Shown in pieces: positions 30,857 through 40,030 of a DNA stretch of 64,000 nt. This DNA is from Thermanaerovibrio acidaminovorans DSM 6589 (GTDB lineage: Bacteria; Synergistota; Synergistia; Synergistales; Synergistaceae). Where the stretch lies: contig NC_013522.1 of the NCBI RefSeq assembly GCF_000024905.1, positions 806,001 through 870,000 of the forward strand. The letters run 5' to 3'. The position numbers were made by a program, and so were the translations under genes. The notes beneath the pieces are model-generated. The model saw nothing but the letters and a program-made list of their open reading frames with translations, did not search any database and was not told the origin of the DNA. Every line of letters starts with the position of its first letter. The first letter of the stretch is position 1.

Positions 30857-31208
30857 GGGGGCGACAGGTTTCGACGGCAACAGGAGGGTTTAGGAGAGCG
30901 GGCCGAGGTTGGGACTTCCTCGTTAATCTGGGTCCCGAAAAGAAAAACGCCAACGATAACTACGCTCTGGCTGCTTAGTTAGCGGCCACGCTCCTTGGGA
31001 TCGCGCCGCCGGATCTCAAGAGGGCGTCACTTAGGCGGCTGGATGGGTGGTTTAGCCTTTCGGTCACCTGTCGAGACTCTAGGAAGGCCCGGGTAAGGGG
31101 ATCCCGCCCGTGGGAGCCTCTGGCCTTAAACTAAAACGCGGGATACGCCCGTAGCGCTTCTAGGCTGGCCGTTGTCGGACGGGGGTTCGATTCCCCCCGC
31201 CTCCACCA
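30857..31208 (+). ncRNA. ssrA: Transfer-messenger RNA (tmRNA)
   Basis: The 5' end GGGGGCGACAGGTTTCGACGG and 3' end TTCGATTCCCCCCGCCTCCACCA are the classic one-piece tmRNA tRNA-like domain; GGGGGCG pairs with CGCCTCC (one G-T). The tag reading frame encodes a peptide ending KNANDNYALAA, stopping at TAG 30976-30978. The resume codon is not certain: the reading frame continues upstream through GAAAAG. Length about 352 nt is normal. It rescues stalled ribosomes with SmpB, encoded just upstream. Confidence 0.96.
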
Positions 31209-36769: not shown

Positions 36770-36807
36770 GGGGGAGGGGTTACTCCACCAGAACCTTCCC
36801 CTCCCCC
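36770..36807. terminator. Convergent hairpin at the malic enzyme/selD junction
   Basis: GGGGGAGGGG (36770-36779) pairs with CCCCTCCCCC (36798-36807) around an 18-base loop, in the 3' end of selD. It could end both convergent genes. Confidence 0.5.
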
Positions 36808-37814
36808 TTGATGAACCTCCCAACCGTTGCGGCCCTGTGGAAGCCAAGCTCCCACAGCTGACTGAGCACCTCTTTCTCCGACCCCGGGGCCACCGCCAGC
36901 AGGAGTCCCCCGGAGGTCTGAGGATCGAATAGGATATCTTGGACCGCCAACGGTACGTTTGGGGACATTAGCACCCGATGCTCCACATGACCCCGGTTAG
37001 AATAGGCCCCGGCGGGGACCATCCCCATGGAGGCCATCTGGAACGCCCCATCTATAAACGGTACCTGGTCATGGTGGATCACCAGGTCCAGTTCCCGATG
37101 GCTCAGCATGTCCATGCAGTGCCCCAAAAGCCCAAAGCCGGTCACGTCGGTGGCGGCCCGGACGTTCCCAAGCAGGGACCGATCCATCCTACCCGGCACG
37201 TTGTTCAGCATCCTCATCCATTGGACAGCCTGATCCAGCCAATCTCCCTCGGCCACCCCCCCCTTGGAGGCGGTGGTTATTATCCCGCTTCCCACAGGCT
37301 TGGTGAGGATGAGCGAGTCCCCCTCCCTGGCGCCGGTCACCCGCCAAAGTCCACCTTCATCCACCTCTCCGTAGACGGAGAGGCCGTACTTGGGTTCCTC
37401 GTCCTGGACGCTATGCCCCCCCGCAAGGCAGGCCCCGGCCTCCATCACCTTCCTGGCCCCCCCCTCTAGGATCTGGCTCAAAACCTCCAGGGGTTCGCAG
37501 GAGGTGGGGAAGGCCACAAGGTTCAGCGCCACCTTGGGTGATCCCCCCATGGCGAAAACGTCGCTTAACGAGTTGGCGGCGGCGATCTCCCCGAACGTCA
37601 ATGGATCGTCCACTATGGGGGTGATGAAGTCCACGGTTAGTATGGCCAGCCGTCCCTCTCCGATCCTCCACAGGGCCGCGTCCTCCCCGTTGTCCCACCC
37701 GGATAGGAGGTTAGGGTCCCTGCGGGAGGGCAACCCCCTCAATATGGTGTCCAGCTCCGCTGGACCTATCTTGGCGGCTCAGCCGCTGGTCTTGGCCCTC
37801 TCGGTCAGTCTCAT
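36780..37814 (-). CDS. selD: Selenide, water dikinase SelD (a selenoprotein)
   Basis: SelD makes selenophosphate from selenide and ATP, the selenium donor for selenocysteine. Reading from ATG 37814, codon 12 is an in-frame TGA (37781-37779) exactly where SelD has its catalytic Cys or Sec; the context reads TSG-U-AAKIG, with the conserved Lys three residues later. A perfect 7-bp hairpin, GTCCAGC-GGA-GCTGGAC (37765-37749), begins 14 bases after the TGA, as a bacterial SECIS should. A start inside the later frame would lose the catalytic residue. With the TGA read through, the protein has 344 residues. It overlaps birA as ATGA. Confidence 0.93.
37749..37781 (-). promoter_or_regulatory. Selenocysteine UGA and bSECIS element in selD
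   Basis: On the minus strand, TGA (37781-37779) is followed after 13 bases by a 7-bp perfect stem (37765-37759 with 37755-37749) and the loop GGA. Guanines at the start of the apical loop and the 20-nt distance to the loop match known bacterial SECIS features that recruit SelB. Confidence 0.85.
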
Positions 37815-38821
37815 TCCCCTTCACCTCCTTTGATTGGTCTAACGTGCCTCACGTCGCCGGCGGAGAACCTGAGAAGCCCGGTTGAGGTGCGGATCAAAAG
37901 GGATCCTTCATCCTCCACGTCTTCCGCCACGCCCTCCAAGGTCCCGGAATCGGATGATACCACGATCCGACGACCCAGGGTGGAGCACCTTCCGCGATAG
38001 GAATTTATGAAAGCCTTTCGGTCTTCGCAAAGGATCCCTATGTGGTGTTTGAGGCTCCTCAGGAAGAAGGCCAGAAGATCATGTCTTGCCACCAAGGTGC
38101 CCCCCTCCTCCGCGATGGACGTCACGTCTTGGGGGGAGTCTTGGATGGTTGGGGAGCCCTTGATGTTGACACCTATGCCCGCCACTATGTGGTGAACCCG
38201 GTCTGCCTCCACAGCCCCCTCGCTGAGCATGCCGCAGAGCTTTCTACCCCCAACTAGGAGGTCGTTGGGCCACTTTATGTCCACCTTGATGCCGCAGCGG
38301 GCCTCTATGGCGTCCCCCATGGCCATGGCGCAGGCCAGGTTGACCATCTGGACGTGTCCCGGCAGGATCGGGGGCCTCAAGAGCACCGAGGCGTAAAGCC
38401 CCCCCTCCGGCGACTCCCACCTACGGTCCCTCCTTCCCCTTCCCATGGTCTGCCGGTCCGCCACGGCGGTCACTCCCTCCGGATGCCCCTTCTGGGCCAG
38501 ATCCTTCACCGGATTCTGGGTCGATTCGATCCGTTCGAAGTGGAGGATCGGGTGCCCCAGGGGACAGTCCCACAGGAGCATCTCCGCCCAAGAGGGGGAG
38601 AAGCGGTCCTCCCCAGGGGGGCCCTCCAGCACGTACCCCTTGTGGGGGACGGAGGATATGGGTATCCCCTCGTCCCTCAGGATGCCCACCATCTTGGAGA
38701 TACCCTGCCTTGTCACTCCCAGCTCCCCCGCGATGGCGGAGCTGGGGGTTAGCTTCCCCAGGTTGTCGAAGAGCATCTTCAGAGCCATTACCCGGTTGTC
38801 AAGCCTCACGTGTTCGCCCAT
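37811..38821 (-). CDS. birA: Biotin operon repressor / biotin--[biotin carboxyl-carrier protein] ligase
   Basis: This 336-residue protein has an N-terminal helix-turn-helix (TPSSAIAGELGVTRQGISKMV), then the biotin ligase catalytic domain with GRGRRDRRWESPEGGLYASV and KWPNDLLVGGRKLCG, and a C-terminal SH3-like part. The two-domain form both attaches biotin and represses biotin genes. I preferred ATG 38821 over an upstream start; AGAAGGGG precedes it. It overlaps selD and diverges from prfB. Confidence 0.92.
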   Translation of the reverse strand: MGEHVRLDNRVMALKMLFDNLGKLTPSSAIAGELGVTRQGISKMVGILRDEGIPISSVPHKGYVLEGPPGEDRFSPSWAEMLLWDCPLGHPILHFERIESTQNPVKDLAQKGHPEGVTAVADRQTMGRGRRDRRWESPEGGLYASVLLRPPILPGHVQMVNLACAMAMGDAIEARCGIKVDIKWPNDLLVGGRKLCGMLSEGAVEADRVHHIVAGIGVNIKGSPTIQDSPQDVTSIAEEGGTLVARHDLLAFFLRSLKHHIGILCEDRKAFINSYRGRCSTLGRRIVVSSDSGTLEGVAEDVEDEGSLLIRTSTGLLRFSAGDVRHVRPIKGGEGE

Positions 38822-38904
38822 CCCCTTCTGCTCAGCTCCCCGCCCACCCCTTAGGTGGTATAATCTTGCACCGTCCAATATAGCAACTCTTAGGAGGGGT
38901 GTAC

Positions 38905-40030
38905 ATGGTCGTTCTCCCGGTGAGCACGGTCATGGGCAACTTGCGTTCGCGGATGTGCGAGCTGCGTGACAGCCTTTGACCTGGAGGGACTGGATCGAAA
39001 GATAGGGGAGCTCATGGAGCGGGTCTCCTCCGATGGGTTCTGGGAGAGGGAGGACTCGACGGAAGTGGCCCGGGAACTATCTCAGCTTCAGCAGCGGAGG
39101 GAGTCGTTCAGCGCACTGGAGCGGGAGATGGAGGACCTGGAGACCCTGGCGGAGTTGCTTCAGGCCGGGGAGGACGAGGATCTGTCCCGGGAGTTTTACG
39201 ATAGGGCCGCGGAGATGGAGCGTAGGCTGGAGAGGACCCAGGTGCTGACCCTGTTGGACGAGGAGTACGACAGGTCCGATGCCATAGTGGGGATCCATGC
39301 GGGAGCCGGCGGCCTAGACTCCCAAGACTGGGCGGAGATGCTCTATCGCATGTACGTCCGCTGGGCCGAGCGGAACGGCTTCAAGGTCCGGGTCCTGGAC
39401 GAGCTACCCGATCAGGAGGCGGGGATAAAGAGCGTGACCTTCCAGGTGTCGGGGGAGTACGCCTATGGATACCTCAAAGGTGAAAGAGGGGTCCACCGGC
39501 TGGTGAGGATATCCCCCTTCGATGCCGCCAAGCGGAGGCACACCAGCTTCGCCTCCGTAGAGGTGATGCCCGTTCTTCCCGACGACGTGGAGATCGAGAT
39601 AAGGCCCGAGGACATAAAGATGGATACCTTCCGGGCCAGCGGCGCCGGAGGTCAGTACGTTAACATGACCGACTCGGCGGTTAGGATAACCCACATCCCC
39701 ACCGGTATAGTGGTGAGCTGCCAGGTGGAGAGATCCCAGCACATGAACAGGGCCACGGCTCTCCAGATGCTCAAGTCCAAACTCTTCGAGCGACAGCTAA
39801 GGGAGAGGCAGGAACAACTGGAGGCCATCCAGGGTGAGAAGAGGGCCATATCCTGGGGTAGTCAGATAAGGTCCTACACCCTTCAGCCCTTTCAGCTGGT
39901 TAAGGACCATCGAAGCGGATGCGAGATAGGGAACGTCCAGGCGGTGTTGGATGGGGACCTGGACGACCTCATGATGGCGTACCTGAAGTTCTACAAGACC
40001 GGCAGGCTTTGGAGGGATTCGGATTCGTAG
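38905..40030 (+). CDS. prfB: Peptide chain release factor 2 with programmed +1 frameshift
   Basis: RF2 releases peptides at UGA and UAA. An AGGAGG seven bases before ATG 38905 starts a 24-codon frame ending CTT TGA (38974-38979). Skipping T38977 joins it to the main frame (GAC at 38978), giving 374 residues as join(38905..38976, 38978..40030). The junction reads ELRDSL then DLEGLD, as in other RF2 proteins. The main frame has the RF2 anticodon-mimic SPF (VRISPFD) and [18 protein letters not shown] 38966 is a less likely start. No strong SD-like stimulator is seen before CTT. Confidence 0.93.

Follow-up and report, generated by a model that had tools for sequence, protein, structure and literature searches.

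A predicted selenocysteine codon in selD of Thermanaerovibrio acidaminovorans and a coding-region SECIS that appears in two registers across the class

The selD locus and its interrupted reading frame

The window analysed here is a stretch of 64,000 nucleotides from the genome of T. acidaminovorans, which consists of one contig of 1,848,474 bp. Its reverse strand carries selD (36780–37814) and, immediately upstream, birA (37811–38878), which encodes a biotin ligase/repressor (TIGR00121, 2.9e-51), while prfB, the gene for release factor RF2, diverges from the birA–selD pair. The birA stop codon overlaps the selD start as ATGA, and the two genes are likely to be borne by the same transcript; they are neighbours in 27 of 69 Synergistota loci. 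The selD frame begins at ATG 37814–37812, 9 nt downstream of a ribosome binding site, AGGAGG (37824–37829, reverse strand), and extends to a TAA stop at 36782–36780. It is interrupted once, by the TGA of codon 12 (37781–37779), which translation and alignment with homologues predict to be a selenocysteine (Sec) codon. Read in this way, the gene encodes a protein of 344 amino acids with the sequence TSG-U-AAKIG around residue 12. The product contains AIRS and AIRS_C domains and matches the SelD equivalog TIGR00476 (E=4e-103, 344.9 bits against a cut-off of 125) over a region that includes residues encoded 5′ of the UGA. Residues U12 and K15 align with the C and K of the SelD proteins from E. 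coli (3u0o) and A. aeolicus (2yye); solved SelD homologues carry Cys at the UGA site, and the Cys/Sec with a Lys three residues on is invariant in our alignment of SelD homologues (A1).

The original prediction, that selD is a selenoprotein gene with UGA at the catalytic position and a bacterial SECIS (bSECIS) downstream, is thus borne out, the UGA being aligned with the catalytic Cys of the E. coli enzyme. The same holds for its contention that conventional ORF calling starts SelD too late: the only ORF that a plain listing under the standard code offers is one of 320 amino acids starting at a TTG (36780–37742), from which the catalytic region is missing. This ORF is what one would expect if the UGA were a true stop and a shorter SelD were made from TTG 37742 or from another codon beyond the UGA. 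Such a protein would, however, be devoid of both Sec/Cys12 and Lys15, which are conserved in homologues, and the good Shine–Dalgarno sequence sits at ATG 37814. Moreover, the ten codons before the UGA display six synonymous and no nonsynonymous changes relative to each of two congeners; they are under protein constraint and are therefore translated. Since, in addition, the TGA is kept in 118 genes of the class, nearly all of which have the hairpin, we regard termination at codon 12 as extremely improbable.

The hairpin in question, GTCCAGC-GGA-GCTGGAC (37749–37765, reverse strand; loop at 37756–37758), consists of seven Watson–Crick pairs closed by a 3-nt loop, the stem starting 13 nt and the loop 20 nt after the UGA. 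The 51-nt segment counted from the UGA has a folding energy of −22 kcal/mol (z −3.3), and the 17-nt element itself one of −10.1 kcal/mol. The bSECIS consensus specifies a loop of 3–9 nt, an upper stem of 4–16 bp, G at the first two loop positions, a location 16–37 nt from the UGA and a minimum free energy of at most −7.5 (PMC13188914). The window element does not differ from this description on any of these points, and the perfect 7-bp stem with a GGA loop, at the distance and with the loop guanines originally reported, stands. As evidence for a SECIS, this single hairpin is suggestive. Watson–Crick stems of at least 7 in bSECIS position follow 12 of the 1662 TGA triplets on the two strands of the window, and 490 of 20,000 recodings with the gene's own synonymous codons (2.5%) reach seven pairs in the selD stretch. 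Since the peptide GPAELD is itself conducive to such a stem, the hairpin is no more than mildly unusual, and we dropped it as proof in its own right as too weak. On the sequence data, it is the comparative evidence, namely conservation across the class, that we take to be decisive.

Including selD, 13 TGA readthrough candidates in the window combine a bSECIS-like stem with open frames on both sides. Ten of the other 12 were scanned against Pfam; two had matches (HDOD and glutaminase), neither domain extending across the TGA, and the non-selD candidates were rejected. A scan of the window against Rfam returned only tRNAs and a tmRNA; the tmRNA gene (30857–31208, forward strand; tag ANDNYALAA) is ordinary.

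Selenium genes and SelD across the class

The genome encodes the Sec machinery in full. selA (G000:C1:801816–802919, 3.6e-124) and selB are found in the 5 kb preceding the window start (C1:806001), and selC encodes a tRNA-Sec with a UCA anticodon (82.8 bits, C1:1063681–1063771). At least two UGA selenoprotein genes are present besides selD: grdA (C1:1196134–1196574), whose one TGA, read as U, gives TECFVUTAAGAMDL, and grdB, which read likewise gives ILTSTUGTCTRCG. The search for a formate dehydrogenase selenoprotein returned only a weak match, below the cut-off and without UGA. From selD alone, the original prediction had anticipated selA, selB, selC and further selenoproteins; all of these were recovered, among them selB and the tRNA-Sec gene, whose absence would have counted against it.

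With a complete machinery, a conserved SECIS and further selenoproteins, Sec is the residue to be expected at the UGA, selenium starvation being a possible exception. It could be argued instead that Cys or some other amino acid is what the UGA mostly receives, or that readthrough is inefficient, leaving Sec-SelD as a minor form. Indeed, Sec insertion in E. coli is 30–40% efficient (PMC4513850), and SelD with Cys is functional in many bacteria (PMC4561486). In view of the gene complement of T. acidaminovorans, we nevertheless find this very unlikely.

The presence of Sec in the SelD of some bacteria, mentioned in the original prediction, is already known: in a reference set of 223 genomes, 19% of the SelD genes have it, and their bSECIS have been seen (PMC4561486). 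The window gene shares with these bacterial Sec-SelDs (PMC4561486; A. aeolicus 2yye/2zod) the SelD equivalog, the N-terminal position of the Sec/Cys, the motif SSG-[UC]-AAK[VI]GP and a bSECIS just 3′ of the UGA. The Synergistetes, for their part, are described as a selenoprotein-rich phylum in which 13 of 14 organisms use Sec (PMC5029168), and grdB-Sec and tRNASec are reported from Cloacibacillus porcorum MFA1 (PMC10838667). The Synergistota selenoproteomes resemble that of T. acidaminovorans, which belongs to the same phylum, in their Sec-containing glycine reductase components and full machinery, and neither SelD nor its SECIS is singled out in the passages of these two accounts that were consulted. 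SelD selenoproteins and selenium-rich Synergistota are therefore already known, and the window gene is a further well-supported case.

SelD was found in 124 of the 183 genomes of the class, and the census is based on 124 SelD genes with a retrieved N-terminus. The codon at the UGA site is TGA in 118 of them (116 genomes) and TGC in the remaining six (L042–L047); Cys is also the residue in clostridial SelD. A SelA match was obtained for 113 of the 116 genomes with UGA-SelD as compared with one of the six with Cys-SelD, the lists having been compared by hand, and the three UGA-SelD genomes without a SelA match (G007, G036 and G118) are assemblies that are 80–94% complete. One base change suffices to turn TGA into a Cys codon, and the TGA of the window might accordingly stand for TGC or TGT, through a sequencing error or in a pseudogene. 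Yet 116 genomes of the class share this TGA, no other stop interrupts the frame, and the stem does not occur in the class's Cys genes. The probability of such an error or decay seems to us negligible.

The six Cys-SelD genes (TSGGCGAK) belong to genera g11–g13, and five of the six genomes are without SelA; in the sixth, G143, SelA has been kept and shares a contig with the Cys-SelD gene. In these genomes selenophosphate may serve a purpose other than Sec synthesis. Three further genes (L048, L049 and L050) are divergent UGA-SelDs with a different hairpin downstream of the UGA. They carry the motif SCAG-U-MAK in G163 and G135 and occur as an extra copy in G136, and on the tree they group with the Cys-SelD genes, where long branches meet.

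Two registers of the SelD hairpin

Counted in nucleotides after the UGA, the hairpin is found in two registers. In register A, positions 13–17 pair with 21–25 around a loop at 18–20, 17 nt after the UGA; in register B, positions 14–20 pair with 24–30 around a loop at 21–23, 20 nt after the UGA. The window SelD uses register B, whereas most of the class has its loop at 17 nt. Among the 118 UGA genes, 96 are in A, 17 (window gene included) in B and five in neither by this simple rule; two of the five are register B with one mismatch, one forms a stem resembling that of register A around a loop of 5 nt, and the other two, both divergent genes, require a different hairpin. At least five pairs in A or B are formed in 113 of the 118 genes, against 8.0 expected from synonymous recoding. 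By comparison, none of the six Cys genes of the class has an A or B hairpin (0.0 expected), and a short stem of at least five pairs occurs in nine of 29 clostridial Cys genes (2.5 expected).

Codon usage within the stem is extremely skewed. Gly at U+5 is encoded by GGT in 99 of 104 cases (14 expected), Ala at U+7 by GCG in 99 of 99 (30 expected), Glu at U+8 by GAG in 26 of 26 (14 expected) and Ile at U+4 by ATA in 94 of 111 (36 expected). Across the hairpin, 75% of pairs with the same amino acid have identical codons, as compared with 38% just upstream. Support for the stem from covariation in the alignments is modest, since there is almost no variation in the stem and the sequences share ancestry. 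For register A, five cells with changes on both sides were counted against 0.9 after shuffling (reached in 0 of 500 shuffles), with G–C replaced by C–G in five sequences. For register B, that of the window gene, the signal is weak, with one such cell, a number reached in 31 of 500 shuffles; it reflects a compensatory T–A to G–C change in a single sequence (L059). Taking together the reading frame, the homology, the machinery genes, the conserved hairpin, this covariation and the register switches described below, all of them observed at the level of sequence, we consider it almost certain that selD encodes a selenoprotein with Sec at residue 12, inserted by means of the hairpin at 37749–37765.

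The register is decided by nt 24, the third base of codon U+8. When this codon specifies Asp (GAC/GAT), nt 24 pairs with G14, resulting in register A; when it specifies Glu (GAG), nt 24 pairs with C20, resulting in register B. In nine genes, Glu GAG is accompanied by Ala GCT, derived from Gly GGT, and nt 24 then pairs with C14, again giving register A. One gene (L194) combines register B with Asp by way of an Ala to Gly change at U+7 (G20–C24). As the third base of U+8 pairs with nt 14 or with nt 20, a switch of register is linked to an exchange between Asp and Glu at U+8, between Gly and Ala at U+5 or between Ala and Gly at U+7. On a quick, unrooted SelD protein tree made without the hairpin codons, at least four register changes and at least two Asp/Glu changes are required, and both Asp/Glu changes at U+8 coincide with register switches; the figure of four is approximate, since L050, a register B call, is a divergent gene with another best hairpin. 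Register B covers the family of the window gene (f1), being kept in the genera related to its own; nine family members have reverted to A, and g48 and g47 show switches of their own. Since it occurs in families f2–f10 and in a Syntrophaceae SelD (L142), register A is probably the ancestral state.

These patterns make it likely that the SelD coding-region SECIS slides by one codon, and has done so about four times in the class, through re-pairing of nt 24, and that the residues at U+5, U+7 and U+8 follow the RNA register rather than the needs of the enzyme. Alternatively, the two registers may be an accident of protein evolution (GPADL versus GPAEL) with no selection on the RNA, given that the peptide favours both stems and that Asp to Glu is a mild substitution. 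An accident of this kind does not sit well with the exclusive use of GAG for Glu, with the near fixation of GGT and GCG, with the restoration of the 14–24 pair by Gly(GGT) to Ala(GCT) in nine genes or with the independent switches in g47 and g48, and appears to us rather unlikely. In the literature searched, which included few subscription papers, we found no description of a register that switches by one codon together with amino-acid changes linked to it; two SECIS registers one codon apart thus appear to be unreported.

The prfB leader and the proposed role of the SelD hairpin

Both selD and prfB are recoded at UGA, where their products have opposing roles, and they have been kept as neighbours: prfB is near selD in 32 of 69 loci of the class (36780–40030 in the window; L012–L041 and L065–L092), with the order sometimes rearranged. 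The site CTTTGAC (38974–38980, forward strand, in the leader region 38945–38980), on whose +1 frameshift prfB depends, is kept in all 32 of these prfB genes. In the family of the window gene, the Shine–Dalgarno-like stimulator is gone, GTGA standing in place of AGGA, and a 7-bp hairpin, GTTCGCG-GATG-TGCGAGC (38945–38962, forward strand), lies 11 nt upstream of the frameshift site. Among the leaders compared (L012–L041 and L219–L288), all seven pairs are formed in 34 of 36 with GTGA (4.3 expected from synonymous recoding) and in one of 44 with AGGA-type or other motifs. A sample of 21 sequences gave 22 cells with changes on both sides, against 7.3 after shuffling, a number reached in 0 of 500 shuffles. 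The stimulator therefore seems to have been replaced by a covarying upstream hairpin, possibly a natural case of hairpin-stimulated RF2 frameshifting. In this respect, an engineered upstream hairpin has been found to stimulate +1 frameshifting by 70S ribosomes at CUUUGA to about 60% of the effect of a Shine–Dalgarno-like element (PMC6321510). A survey of prfB frameshifting describes the AGGGGG motif as hyper-conserved, and a term search of its text gave no mention of hairpins or of RNA secondary structure in connection with prfB (PMC12421855). Of the two observations, that on prfB may be the more surprising.

As regards selD, we infer the following course of events in the cell. A ribosome starting at ATG 37814 would reach the UGA at codon 12, where SelB carrying Sec-tRNA(Sec) would bind the hairpin, with its loop 20 nt past the UGA, and Sec would be inserted instead of termination taking place. 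Recruitment of SelB and Sec-tRNA(Sec) by such a hairpin, with decoding of the UGA, is the established route of bacterial Sec insertion (PMC13188914). Sec12 and Lys15, the counterparts of Cys17 and Lys20 in E. coli, would form the flexible N-terminal loop with which SelD handles selenide. The enzyme would convert ATP and selenide into selenophosphate, from which SelA would make the Sec-tRNA(Sec) that serves GrdA, GrdB and SelD itself. SelD would thus supply the selenophosphate for its own Sec, and its production would therefore be self-dependent.

The reading of selD proposed here restores the 5′ end of a gene cut short by plain ORF calling and implies that the Sec machinery of T. acidaminovorans would depend on its own product. 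If the registers do switch as suggested, SelB of the class must accept loops located either 17 or 20 nt from the UGA. Register switching would then constitute a natural experiment on the range over which a SECIS can shift relative to its UGA, as well as on how RNA structure may dictate the amino acids beside an active site.
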